From: a virus
Length of the DNA: 23,978 nt
Strand: one strand, 5' to 3'
IMG/VR virus record: IMGVR_UViG_3300035698_009070
Location: 1-23,978 of that record
Position numbers and translations under genes: made by a program. The notes under the pieces were generated by a model that was not told where the DNA came from, searched no databases, and saw only the letters and a list, made by a program, of their open reading frames with translations. Of this stretch, positions 1 to 23,135 are shown piece by piece (the first letter of the stretch is position 1; each line of letters opens with the position of its first letter).

Positions 1-894
1 CAATCCTTGATCCCACGCTTTTCTGCGTCTGTTTAATGTTTCATGTAATCTAGATTCACCACGAGTGCCTCCATAATTTATAAAAAACCCATAATTAAAA
101 GGATTCAAATTATCCCTTATTAAGAAATCACTACTAAAACTAACATCACTTGAATATCTACATACTCTTATCTGTTTTTTCGTTTCTCGTTTACCATATT
201 TATAAATCATAACTGGGTGTTCTTCTTTAATATTTTCTTCCCCAGTATCATATAAACTTATTGTAGTTGTATTTAAAGCATTAAGTCCCCTACTTTCTAA
301 AGTATTTAACTCAACATTCATTGGTTTATCCAATTGAAAGAAAGTATCACAATCACCATATATAATCCACTTTGGCTTTTGTTCATGAATCACATTTAAC
401 ATCTCATTTTGTAATTGATCTAAATTAAATGATCCACCATTATCATATCTATGTGAACTTATATCATTTTCTTGAATCCATTCCCATGTACCATCATCTG
501 ACATATGATCAACAATATACATCTCAACACCGTTTTGCTTACACCATTCATATTGTAATGGTAACCAGACCTTTTCATTATAAGCACAATAAATTGCTAG
601 AACTTTATCTTCATTAAAATTCTCATTGAATAGTTCAGTCGATTGTTGATACTTATTTTTAATAACTGCCTTATGTGTATTTTTTCTCAATTCTGGATTA
701 TAATTATTAATAAACACACCACCAGACTCATCAAAGTTATTTGGATTATCAGGAATGAATCTTTCCCCTCTACTTGGTCTTTTCCTTTTAAACTCATAAT
801 GTATATTTTGGTATTCTACATTACCTTTATTATCCCATTGTTTTATTTGAGAATCTGGAAATCTCCACCTTTTATTACCTTTTATTATTAACAT
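1..894 (-). CDS. Glycosyltransferase, GT2/GT92-like, 3' end beyond window
   Basis: This gene is read leftward from an ATG at 894 and stays open to base 1, so 298 codons are visible and the C-terminus is missing. Residues 1-54 form a module also found at the start of the 1099-aa glycosyltransferase at 3408-6707 (RWRFPD, EYQNIH, FKRKR, FIPDNPNNF are shared). A glycosyltransferase fold begins near residue 98 with AIYCAYNE, then IVDHMSDDGTWEW, and a metal-binding-type GDCDTFF motif. Near the edge NYGGTRG and HETLNRRRKAWDQG resemble the end of the GT2/GT92-like fold. It probably transfers a sugar from a nucleotide donor in the cytoplasm; donor and acceptor cannot be read from sequence. It is the last visible gene of the operon, 6 bases after the epimerase gene. 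Confidence 0.85.
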   Translation of the reverse strand, partial: MLIIKGNKRWRFPDSQIKQWDNKGNVEYQNIHYEFKRKRPSRGERFIPDNPNNFDESGGVFINNYNPELRKNTHKAVIKNKYQQSTELFNENFNEDKVLAIYCAYNEKVWLPLQYEWCKQNGVEMYIVDHMSDDGTWEWIQENDISSHRYDNGGSFNLDQLQNEMLNVIHEQKPKWIIYGDCDTFFQLDKPMNVELNTLESRGLNALNTTTISLYDTGEENIKEEHPVMIYKYGKRETKKQIRVCRYSSDVSFSSDFLIRDNLNPFNYGFFINYGGTRGESRLHETLNRRRKAWDQGL

Positions 895-900
895 TTTATT

Positions 901-1986
901 TTATTTTATTTTTAAGAATTCTATTAATTCTATAATAATATTCTCACCAGCCATACCTTCACCGTATAGATTTTTCTTAAAATTTGGATTCAATTGTTGT
1001 AATCTATTAAATCCACTTACTATAATATCTCTATCACTCCCAACAATAATATTAAATGAATTATTTACAAGTTCTACCCACTCAGTTTCATCACGAAGAG
1101 TTAGACACATCTTACCAAAGAAAAAAGCTTCTTTCTGCAACCCACCACTATCAGTAACAACACAATCACAACTTTTCAATAGGTGTATCATTTCTAAGTA
1201 ACCAACTGGTTCTATCATAAGTATATCAGATACATCAATATCAATATTATTTAAAATATTTTTAGTTCTTGGGTGAATAGGAATTACTATTTTACTCTTC
1301 TTATTAATTTCCAACAGTGCAGAAAAAATAGACTTCAATCTATCAATATTATCAGTATTCTCTGCCCGGTGTACAGTACATAAAATAAAGTTTTTTGGTA
1401 GATTAACCAAATTTGGAATTTTCGATTTAGTTTCATAAAACAATGCTGCGTCTTGCATAACATCACCACTCTCAACTATCTTAATATCCATGTTTTTATA
1501 TCCCTCTTTTTCAAGATTTTTAACTGCTTGATTAGTTGGGCAAAATAAAATATCTGAAATCCGATCTGATAAAATTCTGTTTATTTCCTCAGGCATTAAC
1601 ATGTTGAAGGATCTTAAACCGGCCTCAACATGCGCGAGTTTAATATGTAATTTTTTAGCGGCTAATGCACCGGCTAAAGTGGAATTAGTATCACCATAAA
1701 TCAATACACAATCTGGATTTTCTATCAATAAAACATTTTCTATTTTTTCAAGCATTTGCCCAGTCATAGCACCATGCCCTAAGCCATTAACATTTAAATG
1801 GTAATGAGGTTTAGGAATGTCCAATTCTTCAAAAAAAACATCTGACATGTTTTTATCATAGTGTTGGCCAGTATGGATAATTATTTCCTCTATTTCCTCA
1901 TTATAAAAATCCCTAATATATCTACTTATAACAGCCGCTTTTATGAATTGAGGACGTGCCCCTATTATTGTTACAATTTTTAACAT
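901..1986 (-). CDS. wecB: UDP-N-acetylglucosamine 2-epimerase (WecB/MnaA family)
   Basis: The product interconverts UDP-GlcNAc and UDP-ManNAc, giving a precursor for ManNAc-containing surface glycans. At 361 aa it has the usual length for the non-hydrolysing bacterial enzyme. Family motifs are intact: GARPQFIK at residues 9-16, HTGQHYD at 38-44, YGDTNST with Asp99, HVEAGLRS with Glu121, MPEEINR with Glu134, TVHRAEN with His206, and TDSGGLQKEA near 290. Asp, Glu, Glu and His correspond to the catalytic residues known for E. coli WecB. It lies between the methyltransferase and the partial glycosyltransferase with gaps of 10 and 6 bases, so it is co-transcribed with them. A phage copy suggests the phage makes its own donor sugar, either to decorate virions or DNA or to alter the host surface; which of these is not evident. 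Confidence 0.95.
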   Translation of the reverse strand: MLKIVTIIGARPQFIKAAVISRYIRDFYNEEIEEIIIHTGQHYDKNMSDVFFEELDIPKPHYHLNVNGLGHGAMTGQMLEKIENVLLIENPDCVLIYGDTNSTLAGALAAKKLHIKLAHVEAGLRSFNMLMPEEINRILSDRISDILFCPTNQAVKNLEKEGYKNMDIKIVESGDVMQDAALFYETKSKIPNLVNLPKNFILCTVHRAENTDNIDRLKSIFSALLEINKKSKIVIPIHPRTKNILNNIDIDVSDILMIEPVGYLEMIHLLKSCDCVVTDSGGLQKEAFFFGKMCLTLRDETEWVELVNNSFNIIVGSDRDIIVSGFNRLQQLNPNFKKNLYGEGMAGENIIIELIEFLKIK

Positions 1987-1996
1987 CTTTATATTT

Positions 1997-2566
1997 TTAT
2001 ATTATAGTCGCATTCACAACAAAAATATAATTATTTTCTGATACAGTGAATCGTTTTATCGCGTGTATATCTAGAACATCTTTATAATAATTCATAATAT
2101 ATTCCTCATCTTCATATACCCTATAATGATTTACAGACATATAGCTTGGTACTGAAAATATTATGTTATTTTTTGGTAAATTCTGAATAACATTAATATC
2201 ATCATCAATATGTTCAAATGTCTCAACACTTAGAAAATCACAATCTCTGTATTCGGTAAAATCAAATTTTCGCAAATCACCCTCAACCCACTCATATTTT
2301 GAGACTTTATCCCTAGCCATATCTAATGCAACTTTACTAAAATCTATTCCTGTGTAATTTTTAAACCCTTTATCATACATTATATGACCAAGATGCCCTG
2401 GTCCACAGCCTAAATCAACATATTTTTTAGATATATTTAATATACTAATAATATAATTCCAAACGTCTATATAAAGTTCGATATCATTGTAATGTTTTGA
2501 ATATATACTATTCTTATTAAATATTTCATCATATGATACTGCTTCAAATATTTCTTTACTTTTCAT
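1997..2566 (-). CDS. Class I SAM-dependent methyltransferase
   Basis: A 189-aa Rossmann-fold methyltransferase. Motif I (VDLGCGPGHLG, residues 50-60) is the SAM-binding glycine loop. GIDFSKVALDMAR (73-85) supplies the acidic residue that binds the ribose, WVEGDLRKFDF (93-103) is motif III-like, and FLSVETFEHIDDD (111-123) matches the post-motif helix seen in the UbiE/Methyltransf_11 group. No target-recognition domain is present, so this is a small-molecule or sugar methyltransferase rather than an obvious DNA enzyme. Its start overlaps the end of the preceding gene by 11 bases, indicating translational coupling. In this operon the likely role is O-methylation of a sugar or glycan, which is an inference from context. 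Confidence 0.85.
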   Translation of the reverse strand: MKSKEIFEAVSYDEIFNKNSIYSKHYNDIELYIDVWNYIISILNISKKYVDLGCGPGHLGHIMYDKGFKNYTGIDFSKVALDMARDKVSKYEWVEGDLRKFDFTEYRDCDFLSVETFEHIDDDINVIQNLPKNNIIFSVPSYMSVNHYRVYEDEEYIMNYYKDVLDIHAIKRFTVSENNYIFVVNATII

Positions 2567-3407
2567 ATTGTTCTTTTATTATTTTAGTTATTACCCATGC
2601 AGACATCGCACGAACTCTAAAGTTTTTATGATTCAGATACGATAATGTCTTTTTATATATTAAACTAAGTCTGTTATTATATTTTTCTTCTCCTATTATA
2701 TTACTAATTTCCACACCATATATCTTATAAATTAAGTAACCAACTGGGACACCCCACCCAATAGATCCATCTTGTAACCAATCATTATCTGTCAATAGGA
2801 AAGTTTTTAATGAATTTTTAATTAGATTTACATCATAGAAATATTTTTTTAATACATTAAAGTGATAAAGCATTAAGCCTAAATGAAAATTATCTTCATA
2901 TCTACTGGTGATGTATTCACCATTTACTATTTTAAAATATTCCCAATTCCCATTTTTCTGATTATCTTTCAACATTGTAAATAGTTCCTTTGCTTCTTTA
3001 ATAAAATTATTCTCTGCATATATAACTGCTGCTGCACTTGAAACATTTGGTACAATATAATTTATCTCCTCACTACAATATCGTTGGTATCCATTTTGGT
3101 ATTTTCCTATTGTTTTCAAATTATTAATTATAGATAATACAGCTTCACTATTATTAATCTCTTTTAAAAACTCATAACAAGCCCAACCTGTATATATGTA
3201 AATATTTTCTTTTGTACACTGTGTATTTAATATTTTAATTGGTTCATTTAATGTTTTATTTCGGCTAACAACCTCATCTAACATAGCCGTGGTTGATAGT
3301 CCCAATTTATGATACGCATAACCCAAATACGCATAACCATCAGCCGAAGACTTTTCAAAATAAACATTAGTATCTGGTAGTTTAATATTCTCTATTTTTT
3401 TATACAT
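2556..3407 (-). CDS. Alpha-helical protein of glycan operon, unknown function
   Basis: I do not recognise this 283-aa protein. It reads as repeated helical pairs: YAYLGYAYHKLG (25-36), YTGWACYEFLKEI (72-84), then VSSAAAVIYAENNFIKEAKELFTML, YEDNFHLGLMLYHF, IGWGVPVGYLIYKIYG, and a helix near the C-terminus. Conserved-looking Trp, Tyr and Gly sit between the helices, a look shared by (alpha/alpha) toroid proteins such as glycan hydrolases, epimerases and terpenoid cyclases. No catalytic signature is clear. The ATG at 3407 follows directly on the stop of the 1099-aa glycosyltransferase, so the genes are coupled. Participation in glycan synthesis or modification is inferred only from position. Confidence 0.75.
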   Translation of the reverse strand: MYKKIENIKLPDTNVYFEKSSADGYAYLGYAYHKLGLSTTAMLDEVVSRNKTLNEPIKILNTQCTKENIYIYTGWACYEFLKEINNSEAVLSIINNLKTIGKYQNGYQRYCSEEINYIVPNVSSAAAVIYAENNFIKEAKELFTMLKDNQKNGNWEYFKIVNGEYITSRYEDNFHLGLMLYHFNVLKKYFYDVNLIKNSLKTFLLTDNDWLQDGSIGWGVPVGYLIYKIYGVEISNIIGEEKYNNRLSLIYKKTLSYLNHKNFRVRAMSAWVITKIIKEQYEK

Positions 3408-6400
3408 TTAACTCTTTTTTATTTTGGCTATTTGGTCTTCATTTAATTCTAAACCTTTAAATCGTTTTAAGATAGGTAAGTTGGTAACCATATCAATATT
3501 AGTATTTTCAAATAAATGTGAGTATTCATCAGGAACTACCAAAGGTTCGAAAAATCTATCTCTATCAGATATATTATTATAACCATGTATATCAACACCA
3601 TCAGTTCGTGTATTTTGACCTCTATATTTTTTGATTTTTCCATATTTTTCCAATGTGTTGAATATATAAACATCAATATTTTTTTTCTTATCATTTTCTG
3701 GTAATTTCTTAATAAGTTTTGTACACCAAGCCATATTTAATCTACAAGGGTGATTACATGAGTCGTGTGCATCGAAAAGCAATGCCTTATCATATTTATA
3801 TGAATAAAAATATCCTCTTTGTTCATCATAATAATCACAGTTTTGTGTGATGAATGCTTGATATGTCTCCTCAAGTCTATCAGGATGTGAATAACAATCA
3901 CCAGCGTGTAATAAAAAACATTTAGAATCAGATGCAATTTCTGCCAATTTTACCCATTTTAATCCTAGTGGTATCCACTCATCTAATTGAATATATTCGA
4001 TTCTTACACACCCGGACTCTTTTAATCTTTCAGACCAAGACATTAACTTATCACGCCCATAATCTTTATTATTTTTTTCTTCAATTACAAGTAATTCCCA
4101 AGTAGTAGTAGTCTTTTGTTTTGCTAAACTTTCAAGTGCTAATTCAACAATTCGACCCATATTAAAAATTGGGAGGGCAACTGTTAAATTTATTAAACCA
4201 TCTTTAAATTTGTTTCTAACATATTCCACATCACTAATTATTAGATTCATTTTTGCTGGATACATGACACCTTGTTCTCTGAATTTATCATCATTTATTT
4301 TTTTATGATATGGGTGCATAACACTAATATCTCCTCTATGTTCACATAATGCAAATTTAGTTTGTATTATTTTTTTACCGGTTTTTTCATTAAATACATC
4401 TCTAAATGAAGCACCAACACCTGACCCATATTTATTATTTTTATTTATGGAATTTTTTGGAATTTTTATTTGTATATTTTTCATTACATCATAAGTACTA
4501 ATAAAACAAGTATCTACCCAGTTAGTTTCCATTATTTTAGTTCCCATTATTTCAGCTTCTGGTATTTTCTCAAATATCTTCTCATGTGAGTTTAATGTAA
4601 AGAAATTAACACATAAAACATCTTTTGATATAAGTTTTGTTAACCTATTAAAAAAGTCATTAACTATTATAATATCGTCTGGAATTTGTATATAATAATC
4701 AAATCGTTTATTATTTAAATCTTTGTACATTTTGTTATTTAATTCCCAGAATCCCCACTTACCATAATTTCTATCTGTCTTCTTGTAATCCCATCCATTG
4801 GTTATACAGAATTTTTTTACATCACTGTAATTAGAATCACACCTGTCATGATAAACAGACACATTAATATCACAATCAGTATACTCATCTTGTTCTTTTA
4901 TTTGCTTTAATAAATCTAAACAAAACTCAGGTCTTTTATGTGTCATTATATTCAATTGTACTTTCTTCACAAAATCTATATTTATGTCTAAGAATTTAAA
5001 CATATCATTTGAAATTGTGTTTATGTCATTTTTCTTTCTGTTTTTATATTCTTGTAATATTGATTCACATATATCGTCAATATTTTCCCATTTAATACTA
5101 TGTGGTAGTCCACCGTTATAAATGCATCGTCTTCCCATTAGACCCATCTCAACTACAGTATTTGGTAAACCATCATGTGGTGTAAGTCTTAATCCGATGA
5201 AACATTTTTTATATACTTTCATTAATTCACTATTATTATATGAATCACGGTATGCAATAATGACTTTTAATTTAGTTCTCTCTTCTATTTCAACTACCAT
5301 ATCTTCGTTATAAAAACTTGGATTTTTTCGACTTGAATACATGTAAATACAGGTACCACGATTCTTGGGTGTAATTTGATTAATGTCTGTGGGTGTGACA
5401 GGTAAAATTGTATGTGTTATCCCAAGTACTTTTAAATCGACAGACACAAACTCACTCATTGCAATATGAGTAATGTTTGGTGCTTTCAAATTGTATCGTG
5501 AAAACTTCTCAATTACCATTGAATCAGAACCGCACCATATTACAGTCGCATTTGATTTATGGTTGACTAATTTTTCATAATCTTCCGTTCTATACAATCC
5601 GAAAAACACAGCATGTTTATTTTCATCATTATATTCAGTAAAGTTATATTTTGAAAAAAGTTTATCTTTGAATCTTTTAACAGATTCACTAACATTACAT
5701 TGCATTTTCTGTAACGGTTCTTGTAAATCTATTTCATTATGTGTAATAAATTCATTGATGATAGTAGTATCTTTTCGCTCTCTTATTAATTTTTGAATAT
5801 TTTTTCTATATTTACTTTTAATACCATATTTCTCACTATTGATTAGATTATGATCATGTATTCGTCTTAATATAGTCACTTTATTAGAATTATATATTGA
5901 TAACCCATTTCGTTTAAATCTATCAACAAGATCACTATCGGCACCACATCGCCAGATTTCAAACCCATTTAATGATAAGAAAATATTTCGACTAAATATG
6001 ATAGTACCACCTGGATTATATTCACACCCTCTATCATTTTTATTCGGGTGATTGAAGTTTACACACTTCACAACTACAAAATTTTCACTTTCTTTATATT
6101 CATTAATGTTAGTAACTAAGAAATCATCTAACATAATATCATCTGCACCAATTACACATATTGTATCATATTTACTATGTGATATTAATGTATTTAACAT
6201 AATATAGGGTCCTGAATTTTTAGATATATTTATTATTTTTAAATTATTATACTTATATTTAATTAAATTAACCTTATTAAGAGTTTCAAAACAACCATCA
6301 ATACCTAACAATATTTCATAGTTTTTATTAGAATTAAAATATGTTTGTCGTGAAATACTATCTAAACATTCTTCAATATATTCGGCCGCATTAAAGGCGG

Positions 6401-6707
6401 AGATACAAATACTGATTTTCTTAGATTCGATTGGTGTTTCTTTAACAGTAGATTCTATTGGTGTAGATTCGATTGGTATTTCTTTAACAGCTATATCTTG
6501 TAAATTTTTGTTATTTTTATTTCTAAAAAATCCTTTATCTTCTTTAAAATTATTTGGGTTATCAGGAATAAATTGCTCACCTCTCTTGGTCCTTTTTCTT
6601 TTAAACTCAAAATGTATATTTTGATATTCGATATTACCCTTGGAATCCCAAGATTTTATTTGTTTGTCAGGAAATCTCCATCTTTTATCTCCTAATATTA
6701 TTATCAT
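3408..6707 (-). CDS. Giant multi-domain glycosyltransferase (1099 aa)
   Basis: First gene of the glycan operon. Residues 1-54 are the module shared with the gene at 1-894. Residues 75-97 are a repetitive Pro-Ile-Glu-Ser/Thr linker. Domain 1 (about 97-300) is a GT2-type GT-A fold: ISICISAFNAAEYIEECLDS, an IGADD metal site at 186-190, and GADSDLVDRFKRNG. Domain 2 (about 365-555) looks like the C-terminal half of a GT-B enzyme: GLRLTPHDGLPNTVVEMGLMG at 505-525 has the EX7E-type arrangement. Domain 3 (about 582-800) is another GT-A-like fold, with LNIMTHKRPEF and IQIPDDI. Domain 4 (about 847-1060) is a second GT2 domain, with VALPIFNMGRIVELALESL and LLHAGDCYSHPDR. Such a chain could add several sugars in sequence. 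No signal peptide or membrane segment is seen, so it should act in the cytoplasm. Substrates are unknown. Confidence 0.9.
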   Translation of the reverse strand: MIIILGDKRWRFPDKQIKSWDSKGNIEYQNIHFEFKRKRTKRGEQFIPDNPNNFKEDKGFFRNKNNKNLQDIAVKEIPIESTPIESTVKETPIESKKISICISAFNAAEYIEECLDSISRQTYFNSNKNYEILLGIDGCFETLNKVNLIKYKYNNLKIINISKNSGPYIMLNTLISHSKYDTICVIGADDIMLDDFLVTNINEYKESENFVVVKCVNFNHPNKNDRGCEYNPGGTIIFSRNIFLSLNGFEIWRCGADSDLVDRFKRNGLSIYNSNKVTILRRIHDHNLINSEKYGIKSKYRKNIQKLIRERKDTTIINEFITHNEIDLQEPLQKMQCNVSESVKRFKDKLFSKYNFTEYNDENKHAVFFGLYRTEDYEKLVNHKSNATVIWCGSDSMVIEKFSRYNLKAPNITHIAMSEFVSVDLKVLGITHTILPVTPTDINQITPKNRGTCIYMYSSRKNPSFYNEDMVVEIEERTKLKVIIAYRDSYNNSELMKVYKKCFIGLRLTPHDGLPNTVVEMGLMGRRCIYNGGLPHSIKWENIDDICESILQEYKNRKKNDINTISNDMFKFLDINIDFVKKVQLNIMTHKRPEFCLDLLKQIKEQDEYTDCDINVSVYHDRCDSNYSDVKKFCITNGWDYKKTDRNYGKWGFWELNNKMYKDLNNKRFDYYIQIPDDIIIVNDFFNRLTKLISKDVLCVNFFTLNSHEKIFEKIPEAEIMGTKIMETNWVDTCFISTYDVMKNIQIKIPKNSINKNNKYGSGVGASFRDVFNEKTGKKIIQTKFALCEHRGDISVMHPYHKKINDDKFREQGVMYPAKMNLIISDVEYVRNKFKDGLINLTVALPIFNMGRIVELALESLAKQKTTTTWELLVIEEKNNKDYGRDKLMSWSERLKESGCVRIEYIQLDEWIPLGLKWVKLAEIASDSKCFLLHAGDCYSHPDRLEETYQAFITQNCDYYDEQRGYFYSYKYDKALLFDAHDSCNHPCRLNMAWCTKLIKKLPENDKKKNIDVYIFNTLEKYGKIKKYRGQNTRTDGVDIHGYNNISDRDRFFEPLVVPDEYSHLFENTNIDMVTNLPILKRFKGLELNEDQIAKIKKS
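6423..6491 (-). repeat. Tandem repeat encoding a PIEST-type linker
   Basis: Two near-identical 27-base units (6423-6449 and 6465-6491) flank a partial 15-base unit. They encode the repeated peptide VKEIPIEST / PIEST / VKETPIESK between the N-terminal module and the first glycosyltransferase domain. Repeats like this can change copy number by slippage, giving a linker of variable length without loss of frame because the units are multiples of three. Confidence 0.8.
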
Positions 6708-13028: not shown

Positions 13029-13886
13029 TTAATTTAATAATATTTTTAATGTATAATCGTAAAAATCAGTAGTATCAAATTGCCTAGTCCCCCTTGATTT
13101 ATCCCATATAACATGATTGTCATCAATTTCTGGTAAAATACTCAATAGGGCATCATCCAACAATTCTTCAATTCTATTTAAATCAAATTTGCCTGTTCTA
13201 TAAGAATCCTCATATCCACCAATATCAATAAGTAAACAAGGTGTAAAACACAATCCAATTATTTTATCTAATGAATATTTCTGCACCTTTCTAGACGAAT
13301 GTAATAAATGTTCATCAGAAGTTGTTAAATGTTTACTCATTTGATTAAGATAATCTAATATCTTAAAATTTGAACAATTGAACTCTTCTCGTGTTACTAA
13401 CTTCTGTGACTCTGTAGTTCTTACTAAAATATCAGTAGATAAAACACTCATATAAAGAGTTGGTTGAACAATCGTAATTAACATAGAAATCATTAATGAT
13501 AATTTATTATCATTATATTTATCTCCCATTCCCAGCATACCATTATAACGCCCATTTATATCATAATCATAATTATCATAATCACAATATGCAACAACAC
13601 GTCTTACAAAAATCTTCTTACCAAAAGGTAATTCATCCAAAACATCATACAATCTACTATAAACATTATCAGTATCAAGCTTTTCTAATGAACCTAAAAT
13701 TTCATCGACTCTATTAGATATTTTATTATAATACCCGACACCAATAAAATGTTCAGCCCAATGTTTTAAATCATTTTCTTTAATGGAATTATCCCATCTG
13801 TGCCTTTTTAAATCCTCAAACCAGTAATAAATACTATAATCTGAATTTTTCTTTGATTCTGTAAATTGTGTATATCTTTTTAACAT
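13029..13886 (-). CDS. Leader-family protein (285 aa), unknown function
   Basis: It begins MLKRYTQFTESKKNSDY, with the E-S junction at residues 10-11 as in its neighbours. The body is a mixed alpha/beta protein with many Tyr and Asp residues (WFEDLKRHRWDNSIKENDLK near 22-41, DELPFGKKIFVRRVVAYCDY near 85-104). No motif of a known enzyme is visible. It lies 2 bases after the 126-aa gene and abuts the 232-aa gene. Although longer than most array members, it shares only the leader with them as far as I can see. Confidence 0.65.
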   Translation of the reverse strand: MLKRYTQFTESKKNSDYSIYYWFEDLKRHRWDNSIKENDLKHWAEHFIGVGYYNKISNRVDEILGSLEKLDTDNVYSRLYDVLDELPFGKKIFVRRVVAYCDYDNYDYDINGRYNGMLGMGDKYNDNKLSLMISMLITIVQPTLYMSVLSTDILVRTTESQKLVTREEFNCSNFKILDYLNQMSKHLTTSDEHLLHSSRKVQKYSLDKIIGLCFTPCLLIDIGGYEDSYRTGKFDLNRIEELLDDALLSILPEIDDNHVIWDKSRGTRQFDTTDFYDYTLKILLN

Positions 13887-14269: not shown

Positions 14270-14830
14270 CTATTTATCAATTTTTTTATATATTTCTTCT
14301 AATTCTTCTCTTGACACGGGCTTTGATTTGATTAAATTTGCCGATTCTGAGTAATAACCATTGCTTCTACCCCACCACTTTATTGTAACATAACCATCAA
14401 TTGTTGCAAATTTATAAAAAGTCCAAGTTTGTGTATCAAAACCACATACTCCTGCTAGTTCAATAGTCTCTTGATTACTTGATACTTCCGCTTGTAATAA
14501 TGGTTGGTCTATCAAATCTGATAAATCACCTTCAATATCATCAATCATAACATTAACATCACAACTAGGATCTTCATCATTATAATAAACATATAAATTA
14601 TATTCTGCATGACCCTCAACAATGAATAAAATTTCATCATTCTCTTTATTTATTCTGATATCAATTATCATCTCACCTTTTAGTTTAGCTGTAGTGAATA
14701 TTTCACCAGTATATCTTGAATAGAACTCTATTCCTAAATCGGAACTATAAAAACTATCATATCCGCATCGAAATTTATTATTCGCTTCCTCATCATCAAT
14801 TGATTCATTATATCTTTTTAAATATTTCAT
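14270..14830 (-). CDS. Leader-family protein, duplicate of the third domain of the next gene
   Basis: I choose the ATG at 14830 because it gives MKYLKRYNES, the shared leader; an in-frame ATG at 14836, directly after the upstream stop, would add only two residues. From residue about 17 onward it matches the last 160 residues of the 434-aa protein upstream: FRCGYDSF, KLKGEMIIDIRINKENDEI, IVEGHAEYNLY, IDDIEGDLSDLIDQPLLQAE, WTFYKFATIDGYVTIKWW and SREELEEIYKKI all have near-identical counterparts. This is a tandem duplication. The fold appears to be beta-rich with a C-terminal helix. Function unknown. Confidence 0.75.
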   Translation of the reverse strand: MKYLKRYNESIDDEEANNKFRCGYDSFYSSDLGIEFYSRYTGEIFTTAKLKGEMIIDIRINKENDEILFIVEGHAEYNLYVYYNDEDPSCDVNVMIDDIEGDLSDLIDQPLLQAEVSSNQETIELAGVCGFDTQTWTFYKFATIDGYVTIKWWGRSNGYYSESANLIKSKPVSREELEEIYKKIDK

Positions 14831-14836
14831 ATACAT

Positions 14837-16141
14837 CTAACTTATTTTTATATATATTTCTTCTAATTTTTCTCTTGATATTCCACCTACTTTACTTAGT
14901 GTAACTTTTTCTGAATAATAACTATTTTCACTTGAGTTAAATGGTGAAATTCTAAACCATTTTATTGTGATATAACCATTAATTGATGCAAACTTATAAA
15001 AAGTCCAAACCCCAATCTGTTTACCTCCATAATATTCTTTGTTGCTTGATTCTTCTGCTTGTAATAGTGGCTGATCAATCAAATCTGATAAATCGCCTTC
15101 AATATCATCAATAGTTACGTTATCTTCATCATAAGGGTCATCTGGATAAAAAAGGTATAAATCATATTCTGCATGACCCTCAACGATTAATAATAACTCA
15201 GTATTATTTTTATTAATTTTAATATCAATTATCAACTCACCTTTCAACACAGATGTTTTTAAATCACTTGTAAATCCCAATTTTAAGAAACTATCATATC
15301 CACATTTAAACTTATCATTATTACTATCATCACCAAGTGATTCTGTTATCTTATATTTATCTTCTAAATAAGGTGATTTTGTCATTGTTCCCCATTTATC
15401 ATATTTTATCCTATAATTATAGAAACCTGATGTTATACTCCTCGCCTTCAACCCAAAAGATTCAGACTCATCTATAAATTCCTTAACTAGTTCTCTAAAA
15501 TTATTATTTGATATTTTATCAACAATTTGACCATCTTCATCAAGATCTAAATAATTATCAGGACTCCATCCCTTATGATAATCTTTATAGGATATTTCAA
15601 CACAAATAGAATTTTTGTCACTATATATCTGTTCTTGACCACCAACGCTACCACTATAAATTTTAACATCAAGACCATCATCTTTCAAAACTAATGCCAA
15701 GTCTTGTAATAATTCTATCTTATCTTGTACTTTACTCTCATTAATATCTTCAACAACTTCTATTTGCTCTTCCCATTTAATATCAAAACCAGTAAATTTA
15801 CCTAATTCACCCGCCTTACTAATATCATTCATATCCCCAAACAAATATTTCCTAACATTAACAAATTTATAATTTCTATATTTATCACCTAAGAAATCTA
15901 CCAATCTCAATGCAACATCTTCTATTTCATCAAATTCGAATTCAACTGGGTCTATTGTTCGACCATCAATATTTGCATATGGTCTCCTAATTTTAATTAA
16001 ATGTATATTAGTATCTGCGAAGATTTTATATTTTTCGAAATTCACCACAAATCCAATATCTGTCAATTCTAAACAAATATCTTTAATATCATCTAAGATA
16101 TTTTGGCCCTTAAAATTTTCAAATAATTTTATAAATTTCAT
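14837..16141 (-). CDS. Three-domain leader-family protein, possible polyprotein (434 aa)
   Basis: It begins MKFIKLFENFKGQ (leader variant). Domain 1 (about 10-115) has the family motif ILDDIKDICLELTDIGFVV. Domain 2 (about 137-250) repeats that plan with KIELLQDLALVLKDDGLDVK. Domain 3 (about 275-434) is the same unit that makes up the neighbouring gene at 14270-14830. The two junctions contain DINESK (132-137) and KITESLG (264-270), which copy the leader's end (x-E-S). In the single-domain paralogue the same position is YNES, followed by an equivalent acidic stretch and F-[RK]-C-G-Y-D-S-F. The gene therefore looks like a fusion of three array genes, with the possible cleavage sites kept. It ends with TAG directly before the next ATG. 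Confidence 0.75.
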   Translation of the reverse strand: MKFIKLFENFKGQNILDDIKDICLELTDIGFVVNFEKYKIFADTNIHLIKIRRPYANIDGRTIDPVEFEFDEIEDVALRLVDFLGDKYRNYKFVNVRKYLFGDMNDISKAGELGKFTGFDIKWEEQIEVVEDINESKVQDKIELLQDLALVLKDDGLDVKIYSGSVGGQEQIYSDKNSICVEISYKDYHKGWSPDNYLDLDEDGQIVDKISNNNFRELVKEFIDESESFGLKARSITSGFYNYRIKYDKWGTMTKSPYLEDKYKITESLGDDSNNDKFKCGYDSFLKLGFTSDLKTSVLKGELIIDIKINKNNTELLLIVEGHAEYDLYLFYPDDPYDEDNVTIDDIEGDLSDLIDQPLLQAEESSNKEYYGGKQIGVWTFYKFASINGYITIKWFRISPFNSSENSYYSEKVTLSKVGGISREKLEEIYIKIS

Positions 16142-16142
16142 T

Positions 16143-16673
16143 CTATTTCTTCTTTTTCTTTTGGAATGGTGATTTTAAATGTTTAAGATTCCAAGATGGT
16201 ACAAATGATTTATTATGATTTTCAAAATCCTCATATGATTCAATACCACTATCTATTGCATTTCTACAATATTGTATATTAGCACCCTGTTTTGTTAAAT
16301 CAGATATCCTATCACCGATATCAATACCCTTAGTCATTTTTCTTAACATCTTCCACTGATCAACAGTGTGTTGTCTAGGCAATGATTCAAATAACATCAC
16401 ATTATCTTCATCTATTTCGATAACACCATTCTCATTAAATAAAATAACATAATTGCTATTCTTTACTGGAATTACACTATCTACTAAGTCAGAATCTATA
16501 CTACCAACACCATATTCTTTTACAGTACTAACATTATCATGCTCAACAAGAAAATGAAATAATTTATTATCATTCTCTTGTATCAATGATTTCATATCAT
16601 TTGGTAATGATATAAATTCGGTTGATTCGCCATAAGGCTTCAATCTAGTTCTTATTATTTTCATATTAACCAT
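16143..16673 (-). CDS. Leader-family protein with lysine tail (about 176 aa)
   Basis: The first ATG (16673) overlaps the upstream gene by 8 bases; an in-frame ATG at 16664 gives MKIIRTRLKPYGESTEF, which restores the leader form with Y-G-E|S, so I prefer the later start. The body contains short strands (SNYVILFNENGVIEIDEDNV) and helices (QWKMLRKMTKGIDIGDRISD) and ends in PFQKKKKK, a highly basic tail unlike its acidic neighbours. Such a tail could bind nucleic acid. I do not recognise a family. Confidence 0.65.
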   Translation of the reverse strand: MVNMKIIRTRLKPYGESTEFISLPNDMKSLIQENDNKLFHFLVEHDNVSTVKEYGVGSIDSDLVDSVIPVKNSNYVILFNENGVIEIDEDNVMLFESLPRQHTVDQWKMLRKMTKGIDIGDRISDLTKQGANIQYCRNAIDSGIESYEDFENHNKSFVPSWNLKHLKSPFQKKKKK

Positions 16674-18295: not shown

Positions 18296-19240
18296 ATGAA
18301 TCAAAATTTCGATTATGATAATATAAATCTAATCGCTAGATATAGTGACGTAGATAGTAGATCCGAATGTGAGACTACAATAAAATTAGGTGACTTTACA
18401 TTTAAGAACCCAGTAATTCCAGCCAATATGGAATCAGTAATAAATGAAAGTTTGTGTGAGAAATTAGCAACAGAAGGCTATTTCTATGTTATGCACAGAT
18501 TTAATATTGATATGGTGGCTTTTGTGAAAGACATGAAATCAAAAAAGCTATATTCATCAATATCTATTGGTGTTAATAAAGATTCCTATGACTTGATAGA
18601 GAATTTAGTTTCTGAAAAGTTAAAACCTGAATTTATTACAATTGATATAGCACATGGGCATTGTAAGAAAATGAAGAAAATGATTAAGTTTGTAAATGAG
18701 AAATTACCAGCTTCATTTATAATTGCAGGTAATGCTGCAACAATTGATGCTACCCGTGATATAGACAAATGGGGAGCAGATGCTATAAAAATTGGTATTG
18801 GACCAGGATCGGCATGTACAACCTACCCAACAACAGGATTTGGTTCTAGAAATATACAAGCTTCAGTAGTCAATGAATGTGCTAGTGTTACTAGAAAACA
18901 TATTATAGCAGATGGTGGTATTAAAAACCCAGCAGATATAGCGAAGTCCATTGTACTTGGCGCCTCTATGGTCATGGCAGGTGGTATGATGTCAGCATTC
19001 CTAGACTCACCTGGAAGAATAGTAGAAATAGATGATATAAAATATAAGGAATTTTATGGAAGCGCATCTGCTAGACAAGGTGATAAGAAAAATAGAGTTG
19101 AAGGCACAGTAAAATTAAATAAATTGAAAACAATGAATCTTACTGACCAATTAGAATATTTAACTGAATGTTTACAATCTGCAATTAGCTATGGTGGTGG
19201 TAGAAAATTAATTGACCTTCAATCGGTTAGGTGGAGATAA
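18296..19240 (+). CDS. guaC: GMP reductase (GuaC, IMPDH/GMPR family)
   Basis: This 314-aa enzyme reduces GMP with NADPH to IMP and ammonia, linking guanine to adenine nucleotide pools. It closely follows bacterial GuaC of the B. subtilis type: FDYDNINLI then SRSECETT (5-28), PVIPANMESVI (39-49), MHRFN (66-70), ITIDIAHGH (114-122), IKIGIGPGSACTT with catalytic Cys174, then TTGFGSRN, IIADGGI (203-209), VMAGG, the phosphate-binding YGSAS (254-258), VEG with Glu269, and SAISYGGG near 295-302. No CBS domains are present, which together with the GFG loop favours reductase over IMP dehydrogenase. The family signatures I can check are intact. It is flanked by small unknown genes on the same strand. 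A phage copy is unusual and may help feed dATP synthesis for this AT-rich genome, which is inference. Confidence 0.93.
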   Translation: MNQNFDYDNINLIARYSDVDSRSECETTIKLGDFTFKNPVIPANMESVINESLCEKLATEGYFYVMHRFNIDMVAFVKDMKSKKLYSSISIGVNKDSYDLIENLVSEKLKPEFITIDIAHGHCKKMKKMIKFVNEKLPASFIIAGNAATIDATRDIDKWGADAIKIGIGPGSACTTYPTTGFGSRNIQASVVNECASVTRKHIIADGGIKNPADIAKSIVLGASMVMAGGMMSAFLDSPGRIVEIDDIKYKEFYGSASARQGDKKNRVEGTVKLNKLKTMNLTDQLEYLTECLQSAISYGGGRKLIDLQSVRWR

Positions 19241-20266: not shown

Positions 20267-20680
20267 TTATTTATATTTTAAACGAAGTGTCAGTAATTCT
20301 GGCCAATTTTTATTTAATTCAATATCAAGTAATTTATTTCGCATGAAAAAACTAACAACTTTCACAAGTTTATCTCCATCAACTCTAAACTCACACCAAA
20401 CACCATCACTATTATATTCGAATTTCACCACATAATCTTTTTCTTTTGCGAAATCATTTGACCTAATTATACAATCTATAATTTCTTGAGTGAGTTTAAA
20501 ATACGTATTTTTTCTTTTAATAATTGTGAATGTAATAGTATCATCAAAAAAATTAACTCTACTATCAATTATGAAATTATCATCTTGTATCACATCTATA
20601 AAAACATCTTTCAAATCTTCATGCATTATATGAATATTTTCTTCATCAATCTTACCTTCGAATCTTTTAATATACTTCAT
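20267..20680 (-). CDS. Leader-family DIFID-domain protein (137 aa)
   Basis: The ATG at 20680 is chosen because it yields MKYIKRFEGKIDEEN, the shared leader; an upstream in-frame ATG at 20707 would add nine residues and overlap the preceding gene. The protein carries EDLKDVFIDVIQDDNFII and FKLTQEIIDCIIRSNDFAKE, matching the proteins at 20700-21110, 21580-21996 and the broken 22001-22416. The common plan is a helix, the IFID strand, a beta hairpin, a 'sQEmIDcIIRS' helix and two or three C-terminal strands. Function unknown. Confidence 0.7.
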   Translation of the reverse strand: MKYIKRFEGKIDEENIHIMHEDLKDVFIDVIQDDNFIIDSRVNFFDDTITFTIIKRKNTYFKLTQEIIDCIIRSNDFAKEKDYVVKFEYNSDGVWCEFRVDGDKLVKVVSFFMRNKLLDIELNKNWPELLTLRLKYK

Positions 20681-20699
20681 TATTTTTAATATCTCATTT

Positions 20700-21113
20700 T
20701 TAACCATTATAAAGCAACATCAAACCTTTTACTCCCATACCAACTTCCATTATCTCATAATTATAGTTTTTTAGCACATCATCAACGTACCAAAAGTTTT
20801 TCCATCTTATAGCAGTATACTCATCTGTCGTTTTATATTTGAAATCTACAGAATAACCTTTTACTTTTATATACTCACCAGATCTAATTATACAATCTAT
20901 CATCTCTTGGCTAAGTTTAAATGTATTACCACCTTTTATAAGTTCTATTATTATAAGAATAGAACTCGGTGTTCTTCCGATACCGCTACGATTTTCAACA
21001 CTAATATTAAAATCATCATCCTGAACCACATCTATAAAGATATCTTCCAAATCTGTTATTATGTCGTCATCCTGATTAGACACCGCTTCAAATGTTTTAA
21101 TGTGCTTCATCAT
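20700..21113 (-). CDS. Leader-family DIFID-domain protein (137 aa)
   Basis: Two consecutive ATG codons (21113 and 21110) are possible; the second gives MKHIKTFEAVSNQDDD, the shared leader. It contains TDLEDIFIDVVQDDDFNIS and FKLSQEMIDCIIRSGEYIKV, making it the closest paralogue of the next gene downstream. Its start overlaps the end of the upstream gene by 17 bases, a sign of coupling within the array. No enzyme motif or membrane segment. Function unknown. Confidence 0.7.
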   Translation of the reverse strand: MMKHIKTFEAVSNQDDDIITDLEDIFIDVVQDDDFNISVENRSGIGRTPSSILIIIELIKGGNTFKLSQEMIDCIIRSGEYIKVKGYSVDFKYKTTDEYTAIRWKNFWYVDDVLKNYNYEIMEVGMGVKGLMLLYNG

Positions 21114-21564
21114 TTATTTCTAAAATTTTATATGTGATTATGTCAGTAATAAATAAAGTAATTACAACATTTGAATTACTAAGCCGTTCTAATCCAAATG
21201 CTAAATTATTCGGATACTTGTCAACAATTCGATTAACACAAACCTCTAAATCAAGATAGAATTCTTTATAATAATCAGAATGTTTAATTAGGTCTTTAAA
21301 AGAAGTTAGATAGCTATTATCAGTGCTTTTTTCAATTCTAACATCAATAATAACACCATAATCATCATCTTCATCATATACGAAACCCCTATCATCACAA
21401 TAACTACAAGCAAACTCTGTATCAATGTCAAGAGAATATCTATTATCATCAGAAAAATCAATAAATTCTAACTCAATATCTTTAATTATATCAGTTATTA
21501 AAGAATCAATAATCTTATTAACCTCATAACTATTACTCTCATTATATTTCTGTAAATATCTCAT
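21097..21564 (-). CDS. Leader-family acidic protein (155 aa), paralogue of 19845-20261
   Basis: It begins MRYLQKYNESNSYEVN, a clear leader with E-S at 9-10. It carries ELEFIDFSDDNRYSLDIDTE, an acidic turn (YDEDDDYGV), and LIKHSDYYKEFYLDLEVCVN, all matched in the 138-aa paralogue. One Cys pair (SYCDDRG and an earlier Cys near AC) is not in a recognisable zinc motif. The promoter-like element TAATATATAGG ends 3 bases before its ATG. Function unknown. Confidence 0.7.
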   Translation of the reverse strand: MRYLQKYNESNSYEVNKIIDSLITDIIKDIELEFIDFSDDNRYSLDIDTEFACSYCDDRGFVYDEDDDYGVIIDVRIEKSTDNSYLTSFKDLIKHSDYYKEFYLDLEVCVNRIVDKYPNNLAFGLERLSNSNVVITLFITDIITYKILEINDEAH

Positions 21565-21567
21565 AGC

Positions 21568-21577
21568 CTATATATTA
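21568..21577 (-). promoter_or_regulatory. TAATATATAG element before the 155-aa gene
   Basis: An exact TAATATATAG (part of TATAATATATAGG) lies 3 bases before the ATG at 21564, in the 15-base gap after the upstream gene. If it is a -10 box, the resulting mRNA would be nearly leaderless. Confidence 0.4.
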
Positions 21578-21579
21578 TA

Positions 21580-21996
21580 TTATTTACTAGGTGATTTATC
21601 ATAGAAATTTAAGGATATTTTATAAACATTTGGATTATAACCATTTCCTAACCAAGCTAAATCTGAATTTCTAAATCTATCATTAACATTATAAATAAAC
21701 CTCTCATTATTACCGCTATTATAACTAAATGTAGTATAGTAATTATTCATTCTTGCATAATCATGTGCCCTAATAACATCTGATATTATATCATCGTTAA
21801 AACGGAAAAAACCACCATCTTTTGTCATTATTCTAATTCTAAGCTCATTACCATATATTGATAATGCAAAAGAAATATTATCAGCTTGTTCCAAATCTAT
21901 AAAAATATCTTTCATATCATGATACAATTGTTTAAGATCAATTTTAACTGGTAAATTTCTGAAATTACTCTCATTATATTTCTTTAAATGTTCCAT
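21580..21996 (-). CDS. Leader-family DIFID-domain protein (138 aa)
   Basis: The ATG at 21996 gives MEHLKKYNESNFRN, the shared leader with Lys2 replaced by Glu; an in-frame TTG at 22008 is less likely. LYHDMKDIFIDLEQADNISF and FFRFNDDIISDVIRAHDYAR place it with the DIFID paralogues, and its C-terminal half (FIYNVNDRFRNSDLAWLGNG) matches the end of the broken gene immediately upstream (FYVVRDRIRNFDTQWM). The two are adjacent tandem duplicates. Function unknown. Confidence 0.7.
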   Translation of the reverse strand: MEHLKKYNESNFRNLPVKIDLKQLYHDMKDIFIDLEQADNISFALSIYGNELRIRIMTKDGGFFRFNDDIISDVIRAHDYARMNNYYTTFSYNSGNNERFIYNVNDRFRNSDLAWLGNGYNPNVYKISLNFYDKSPSK

Positions 21997-22000
21997 AATA

Positions 22001-22416
22001 TTATACAAATGTTAATTTAATTACTCTTGTGCTTGGCCAATCTTCTGTCATCCACTGTGTATCAAAATTTCTAATTCTATCTCTAACTACATAAAATTTC
22101 TTCATTGTATTTTCCACTGAATATTGAAATGTTGTCTGCCACCCATTATCTTTTGCATAGTTATAAGACCTGATGATATCATCTATACCCTCTTGGGTAA
22201 ATCTGAATTCTCCAGAAGAATTATCATCACCATCGTATGATTTCTTAGAGATAGTAATTATTATTCCTTCAATTCCATAATATTTTTATGGTCTAAAAAA
22301 TATGAAACCCTCTTATCTTGTATAAAATCTACAAATATATCATTTAAATCAGATTTCATCTGAAAAATACTAATCTTATCTTTCCCCTTATTTTCAAAAG
22401 TTTCTAAATATTTCAT
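22001..22416 (-). pseudogene. Leader-family DIFID-domain gene broken by a one-base shift in an A-run
   Basis: The ATG at 22416 starts MKYLETFENKGKDK, then MKSDLNDIFVDFIQDKRVSY, and the frame soon stops at 22261-22263. The -1 frame continues the same protein: YYGIEGIIITISKKSYDGDD, FRFTQEGIDDIIRSYNYAKD, FYVVRDRIRNFDTQWM, ending TAA at 22001-22003. The switch point is the run of five A on the minus strand near 22283-22287; a sixth A would restore one frame of about 138 codons, the length of the paralogues. It is a recent frameshift, a homopolymer sequencing error or slippery translation. TAATATATAG precedes the start. Confidence 0.7.
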
Positions 22417-22433: not shown

Positions 22434-23135
22434 TTAAATATTTAAATTCTTATACCTCCAGATGAAACCACCTGCGGATTTATAAACTCCCTTACAACAT
22501 TTAATAATATTACTAACATCGATTTTCATCTTTTTACTCGCATTATTAAGAGATGGGTATTCGTTTATAAAATTCATTTCTTTATCATATTGAATAACAA
22601 ATTTATTATTTTGTTTTAAAATATCTTGCAACTTCTGTTCATTACTTTTAGAATCTTCATATCTCTTATTTGAAATTCGCAATTTTTCTCTCTCACTATC
22701 ATCTTTAAACCTCTCTATAGACTTCATACTTATTAACTCCTTAGTTTCCTTAGATAAGACTAGTTTAAATTTCCTATTCTTGGCAGATTCGGACATCTTT
22801 TTACGTGTTTCATCGGACATCTTTTTATTTTTATTTCCACCACTAGCCATATTTGTCAATTTATGACCCTCTAATTGATATTTATCAATATAATAAATTT
22901 CACGATCACAAACTTCATCATATGATGATATATCACTCTCAATGACTTCTATAATTGGCTTTAAACCCTTACTTCTAAGAGATTGAACCCAATTCGATTT
23001 GTGTGATTTTGATTTCTCTGAACAATGAGATTTTAATCGCTGCTTTAAGGTATTAAATGTTAATCCAATATATCTAATTTCACCCGAAATTGGATCAATT
23101 AGTTTATAAATAGTGTATTTTATTTCTTCTTCCAT
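22434..23135 (-). CDS. GIY-YIG homing endonuclease with NUMOD domains
   Basis: A 233-aa free-standing homing endonuclease of the seg/I-TevI type. The nuclease domain has YTIY (7-10) and RYIG (21-24), the family's GIY and YIG elements, Arg33 on the following helix, and Glu79 in DREIYYIDKY, which correspond to the catalytic Arg and Glu of I-TevI. It ends with TNMASGG (94-100). A NUMOD3-like DNA-binding segment follows (MSDETRKKMSESAKNRK, 106-122), then a basic helical linker, and a NUMOD1-like helix-turn-helix at about 190-230 (EYPSLNNASKKM and CCKGVYKSAGGFIWRY). Such enzymes cut a related phage genome lacking the gene and so spread. It lies next to a virion gene, as these elements often do. 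The signature residues are present, so it appears functional. Confidence 0.92.
   Translation of the reverse strand: MEEEIKYTIYKLIDPISGEIRYIGLTFNTLKQRLKSHCSEKSKSHKSNWVQSLRSKGLKPIIEVIESDISSYDEVCDREIYYIDKYQLEGHKLTNMASGGNKNKKMSDETRKKMSESAKNRKFKLVLSKETKELISMKSIERFKDDSEREKLRISNKRYEDSKSNEQKLQDILKQNNKFVIQYDKEMNFINEYPSLNNASKKMKIDVSNIIKCCKGVYKSAGGFIWRYKNLNI

Follow-up and report, generated by a model that had tools for sequence, protein, structure and literature searches.

The virus record IMGVR_UViG_3300035698_009070 (positions 1-23,978), analysed here as one 23,978-nt window, encodes a 434-aa protein that we consider, with a probability of roughly 70%, to be a T4-type capsid-targeted precursor polyprotein that would be cut by the prohead protease into three mature proteins. 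What we infer for its packaging, cleavage and injection, and for the role of each piece, is as follows. The N-terminal leader, MKFIKLFE, would direct the precursor into the prohead, as T4 capsid-targeting sequences (CTSs) do, and the S77-like prohead protease of the phage would cleave after Glu in a short hydrophobic-x-Glu motif. A cut after E8 would remove the leader, and cuts after E135 and E267, in linkers, would free three domains, D1, D2 and D3, which would remain in the capsid as three small proteins and presumably reach the host with the DNA. The internal sites may descend from leaders of formerly separate genes; because one leader is enough for targeting after fusion, the targeting half of the inner leaders would have eroded, the processing half being held by selection. 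The features are listed in Table 1, in which, as in the text, a slash marks a predicted or presumed cut.

Table 1. The predicted polyprotein gene, its parts and related genes in the window (feature, position, strand, evidence or remark)
434-aa three-domain leader-family gene, predicted capsid-cargo polyprotein	14837..16141	-	
N-terminal leader, residues 1-8, MKFIKLFE/N, predicted capsid-targeting sequence	16118..16141	-	Leader class in ~10% of genes of related genomes
D1, residues 9-135, small alpha/beta domain of a large leader-borne family (KDIFLELxDxGF)	15737..16117	-	Profile search; AlphaFold2; leader-bearing homologues W02:569673, W01:37137
Junction 1, I-N-E/S, residues 133-136, candidate site	15734..15745	-	Aligned with leader ends of D2 homologues in W01, W02, L242; 124-134 pLDDT <50
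D2, residues 136-267, D1 paralogue	15341..15736	-	Homologues W01:521113, W02:317972, L242
Junction 2, I-T-E/S, residues 265-268, context YKITE/S, candidate site	15338..15349	-	Aligned with neighbour leader end RYNE/S; 250-291 pLDDT <50
D3, residues 268-434, DUF7448 domain (PF24240)	14840..15340	-	
Neighbouring single-domain DUF7448 gene, own leader MYMKYLKRYNE/S	14270..14836	-	
Upstream gene, second junction-bearing protein, LFE/SLPRQHTVDQW	16143..16673	-	Relatives: leader-bearing genes ending E/SLPR
Internal L-F-E/S of the 16143-16673 gene, residues 94-97	16383..16394	-	
Single-domain leader gene, MLKRYTQFTE/S	13029..13886	-	W01 orthologue 446618-447850 fused behind D1-type domain, LNE/S kept
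Further leader genes	20267..22008	-	Two are recognised D1/D2-family members (20267-20707, 20700-21113)

The window comes from a relative of the Mahaphage genomes of 634-642 kb. For its gp32-like protein, identity reaches 76% with the counterpart in LR745206 (634,780 bp) and 71% with that in LR756502 (642,428 bp), with lower values for LR756504 and LR756501. The largest huge-phage genomes have been assigned to the Mahaphage clade, for which the predicted hosts are Bacteroidetes (PMC7162821). We read these four record genomes together with four IMG/VR contigs (one in part), and added about 76 shorter loci located via gp32; W01 (LR745206), W02 and W03 are labels among the four record genomes, and L- and G-numbers (such as L242, L397 and G008) denote other contigs and loci. 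Judged by eye only, the window also encodes a protein resembling IMPDH/GMP-reductase (18296-19240), a GIY-YIG endonuclease-like protein (22434-23135) flanked by leader genes and a head-tail adaptor gene, and a row of glycosyltransferase, UDP-GlcNAc 2-epimerase-like and methyltransferase-like genes (1-6707), perhaps for surface or DNA glycosylation.

Across the relatives, a strict leader pattern (tightened from a looser version that drew false gp32 matches) was found in 686 proteins, compared with ~82 expected from shuffled N-termini, and leader-like starts are present in 111 of 969 ORFs in W01 and 123 of 998 in W02 (~10% of genes). Two forms are common: MKYLKxYNE/S or MKYLKxYKIFE/S, whose ends the YKITE/S context of junction 2 resembles, and KKYxxFIxE/S. 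The T4 CTS is MKTYQEFIAE/A. The leader of the 434-aa protein has the character of a CTS in being short, basic and aromatic/hydrophobic and in ending with hydrophobic-x-E. We rate as very unlikely the explanation that such leaders are another kind of N-terminal signal, for example, for a phage replication compartment or the membrane, with a different protease cutting after Glu. The leader core MKYLKxYNE does differ in detail from the T4 sequence MKTYQEFIAE, but the second leader form, K-K-Y-x-x-F-I-x-E, present in the same genomes, closely resembles the T4 layout by sequence, and the same motif recurs at the presumed capsid-protein site and in the scaffold repeats beside the S77-like protease described below. 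Among the other leader-bearing proteins are a T4 Rnl1-type RNA ligase, a polyA/CCA-type nucleotidyltransferase, and a fusion of a 2H-phosphoesterase, with a sub-threshold Acb1 match, to a DnaQ-type exonuclease (in W01, 470485-471747, 516201-517373 and 448257-449573, respectively). The internal proteins (IPs) of T4, which are injected, inhibit restriction enzymes (PMC12373910); it is plausible that the leader-bearing set is a counter-defence or RNA-repair kit delivered with the DNA.

On re-reading the 434-aa ORF, which begins with ATG and has zero internal stops, the leader at its start and the sites DINESK (132-137) and KITESLG (264-270) were found exactly where the original prediction had placed them. 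Its statement that both junctions sit between domains existing as single genes also held, leader-bearing homologues having been found for all three domains. D1 and D2 each occur as leader-bearing genes in W01 and W02, the D2 genes starting with MINILSYEIFE/R (W01) and MIKKWSEFNE/A (W02). In L242, D2 is the first domain of a fusion and is followed by KIFE/A and a different domain, so that the site after D2 lies at the same place despite the change of partner. D1 and D2 are paralogous and belong to one large family of ~155 ORFs, mostly in leader genes, the tested members of which gave no Pfam match above the cut-off and no clear PHROG. D3 matches DUF7448, the sole Pfam domain found in the 434-aa protein, at 32.7 bits versus a Pfam cut-off of 27, whereas in most phages examined this domain is a free protein without a leader. 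In the alignment of D3 with the neighbouring protein, KITE/S falls, as claimed, on the leader end YNE/S of the latter, but to call the two proteins nearly the same was too strong, their identity being just 54-64%. In G008, a fused copy (56917-57702, KTNE/STEEDVHR) adjoins a free leader gene (57699-58124) with the same mature start, FNE/STEEDVHR, an arrangement like that of D3 and its neighbour in the window. DUF7448 proteins with T4-like leaders are encoded in L299 from 2716 (MKTKFEDFINE/S) and in L312 from 2464 (MKTYNQFINE/G), the latter with an extra N-terminal domain. At the boundary between the domains of the L312 fusion, such a site is missing, a point against the polyprotein reading. Searches of viral contigs with the 434-aa protein's own peptides gave no homologue; domain-wise searches alone succeeded.

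AlphaFold2 predicted the 434-aa protein with moderate confidence (pLDDT 65.7, pTM 0.39) as three compact units; relatives of D1 and D2 were absent from the alignment, so in the full model these two domains are essentially single-sequence predictions. Of the two stretches of low confidence (Table 1), one is a long loose linker that contains E267, and the other ends just before E135, which opens the first helix of D2. D1 has the predicted topology helix-strand-strand-helix-strand. Foldseek found no match for the 434-aa model or D1 at E 0.001 or better, and the best VIA-align Z for D1 was 7.0, middling by the grading of the tool, with matches to unrelated folds including phage neck and terminator proteins, so we draw no function from a fold match. 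E-S alone is weak evidence, because the protein contains nine E[SNAG]. Four [ILVM]xE[SNAG] follow the leader, at 135, 225, 267 and 321, and only those at 135 and 267 are interdomain; the 225 motif lies in a predicted helix and the 321 motif within D3, both inside units of the model. We estimate the chance of a random match within 4 residues of one junction at ~5%. The 225 motif, IDES within D2, fits [ILVM]xE/S and counts against the polyprotein reading, as folding would have to protect E225.

We assembled a set of junctions with the mature parts of all leader-bearing singletons as queries, the profile of the mature D1 family alone having yielded too few internal domains. With HNH-type repeat proteins and one DnaQ C-terminal artefact dropped, the set comprised 34 fusion junctions in 20 domain families, two of which come from the 434-aa protein. 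E/[SNAG] was found within 4 residues of the projected junction in 15 of the 20 families (2.6 expected), and, with a hydrophobic P3, in 13 (1.0 expected), whereas versions with D, K or Q/N in place of E were found in 0 (1.2-1.5 expected). At control junctions, formed by non-leader extensions, the excess was far weaker (29 of 162, 19 expected). Five of the 20 families have no motif at the junction, which again speaks against the polyprotein reading. A coincidence of common residues, for which the nine E[SNAG] of the 434-aa protein could be cited, is scarcely credible in view of the family-wide enrichment with matched controls.

The original prediction also proposed comparing the junction residues with the surrounding linkers among homologues. 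Run on independent fusions that share the leader system, this comparison showed that P1 and P1' of the junctions are more conserved than P4-P7: in six fusion families represented in at least two genomes, every pair agrees at P1 (a partly circular figure, as the members were chosen with the site), 89% at P1' and 13-30% at P4-P7. In the linker of trio A4 (D169 versus L189), only E182 and S183 are invariant, the sites of the trio being VKE/S, INE/S and VNE/S. Five aligned 2H-phosphoesterase/exonuclease fusions have variable linkers, all ending in [ILV]NE/NKMWYK (sites SINE/N, GLNE/N, SLNE/N, KVNE/N and KLNE/N). A 568-aa version of this fusion (L160 6609-8315, the same as G008 33638-35344) carries an inserted D1-type domain where the halves meet, together with one more site, KTNE/S, and L397 encodes the halves as two genes side by side, each behind a full leader of its own. 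In the 434-aa protein, with D1, D2 and D3 known as singletons, and in the 2H/exonuclease pair, which occurs both split and fused, one ORF combines several units that are independent elsewhere. A putative protease motif at unit boundaries, conserved relative to the linkers, is apparent across the families; the three-domain architecture of the window is a single case, found once only, and the remaining support is drawn from fusions of other domains.

For 33 curated junctions, the leader score over P4-P9 was -5.6 (leaders +6.0, random -7.0), whereas the score over P3-P1', partly circular as E was required, was 7.3 (leaders 7.8, random -11.3). Of the junctions, 78% have I, L or V at P3, where leaders mostly have F, I, L or T, and the junction P3-P1' is mostly I/L/V-x-E/S, kept across diverged fusions. 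These patterns bear on an alternative that we consider unlikely, namely, that the fusions are recent and the E-S sites are undecayed, functionless leftovers of inner leaders, in which case the protein would be one three-domain chain with N-terminal trimming only. Some fusions are clearly young and retain a whole inner leader (W02:22663, NMKYLKAYKLFE/S; W02:34154, YLKKYNE/G), leader genes in tandem make such fusions easy, and D3 remains as similar to its free neighbour as noted above. Leftovers would be expected to decay evenly, yet P4-P9 is near background with P3-P1' intact; moreover, P1 and P1' are fixed in families with diverged flanks, and P3 moves from F, Y or T in leaders to I, L or V at junctions, towards the canonical protease motif and not as drift would have it. 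The position of junction 1 directly before a predicted helix, together with the frequency of S and N as helix caps, could instead suggest that E-S/N at a domain start is a helix cap or linker feature kept for folding. This has a very slim chance of being correct, given that the motif is kept, at variable distance, before many unrelated domains (DUF7448, DnaQ exonuclease, D1-type, SLPR, KFTxQP and others), that D replacing E is not enriched, and that most DUF7448 proteins of other phages begin without the motif.

In all four relatives, matches to the S77 protease family (PF03420) were found near the gp23-like gene, at E-values of 4e-6 to 1e-4, below the Pfam cut-off. In W01 (198546-200669), W02 (225272-227371) and W03 (185342-187636), a single ORF adjoining the gp23-like gene combines the S77-like prohead protease with a long repeat region, in which YSEYIAENLDKNIA occurs many times; it is apparently a fusion of protease and scaffold. 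The scaffold repeats include many YSEYIAE/NLDKNIA and several LNE/S or IAE/S, with the sites YIAE/N and YLAE/S. In the gp23-like capsid proteins of the four genomes, a conserved N-terminal stretch ends in SINE/N, QINE/N, QIHE/N or QMNE/N before the Gp23 Pfam domain; this presumed propeptide site was read from the conserved N-terminal pattern, as the alignment to T4 does not reach it. INE/S and ITE/S of the window fit the presumed capsid-protein and scaffold motif. In T4, gp21 cleaves after L/I-x-E, and within the CTS, targeting depends on residues 4 and 7 and processing on residues 8 and 10 (PMC9026906), and the SPN3US protease cleaves A-x-E with Ser preferred at P1' (PMC10052503). The protease and capsid genes are both absent from the 24-kb window, a further point against the polyprotein reading.

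The mature parts of 329 short leader proteins contain [ILVM]-x-E more rarely than 2586 other short ORFs (odds ratio 0.72, p = 1.6e-14, a value that treats residues as independent), and, bootstrapped over proteins, the observed/expected ratio is 0.94 (0.89-1.00) for leader proteins versus 1.14 (1.11-1.16) for the others. [ILVM]-x-D, -K and -Q/N are not comparably depleted, and with the hydrophobic residue at P4 or P2 there is little change. The avoidance is modest (~17%), persists outside the D1 family and in cluster averages, and is the pattern that exposure to such a protease would produce. Together with the enrichment at junctions, the retention of P1 and P1' and the match to the capsid/scaffold motif, it argues strongly, on comparative grounds, that a kept junction is a protease site, as originally predicted. 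The feature appears to be general, support for it extending well beyond the 434-aa gene.

The kinds of components involved, that is, T4 CTSs, gp21-type proteases and DUF7448, are known already. With IPI-IPIII and Alt of T4, which carry CTSs processed by gp21 (PMC9026906), the present system shares a short basic/aromatic leader ending in hydrophobic-x-Glu, many small, fast-evolving cargo proteins, and, in the related genomes, a putative S77-like protease and a gp23-type capsid protein. However, T4 cargo consists of single proteins trimmed N-terminally (Alt also C-terminally), whereas here, several domains that elsewhere have a leader gene each are strung together, a candidate site lying between one and the next, and ~10% of genes have a leader-like start. 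The head proteins of SPN3US and phiKZ with long propeptides (PMC5694885, PMC10052503) are cut after x-x-Glu at several sites per precursor, with Ser preferred at P1' in SPN3US. Their extra pieces, however, are propeptides, which are cut up and for the most part discarded (cleavage at 13 of 14 sites takes off N-terminal propeptides), whereas here every piece is a domain also found as a leader gene. The polyvalent proteins that Iyer and Aravind described from phages and conjugative elements (PMC5512222) are similarly multi-domain, are presumed to pass into the host together with the DNA and are likened to polyproteins by these authors, but they embed a peptidase domain (MPTase), whereas the 434-aa protein would need the prohead protease in trans; the Pfam search of the latter, which returned DUF7448 only, detected neither an embedded peptidase nor the other effector domains listed for the polyvalent class. 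In the open-access literature, we found no report of prohead-protease polyproteins with all pieces kept as cargo, nor any mention of capsid-targeting leaders for huge phages.

Extending the polyprotein reading, we tentatively suggest, at somewhat below even odds, that huge phages of the Mahaphage group possess a general cargo delivery system, in which ~10% of the genes would be capsid-tagged and many of these chained into polyproteins. The prohead protease would free the units, including RNA-repair and 2H-phosphoesterase/exonuclease enzymes, which would be injected as a counter-defence kit, and domains would be gained or lost as cassettes, each with its own E/S site. The change at junctions from a whole leader to a bare putative cleavage site parallels the separation of targeting from processing residues by mutation in T4. 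If the polyprotein reading is true, it would represent a phage counterpart of the polyprotein strategy, in which the head-maturation protease ties cutting to assembly. Should the leader prove to be a capsid tag and the junctions protease sites, one could predict the cargo and its exact mature ends from the sequence of the largest, uncultured phages, for dozens of genes in each genome.
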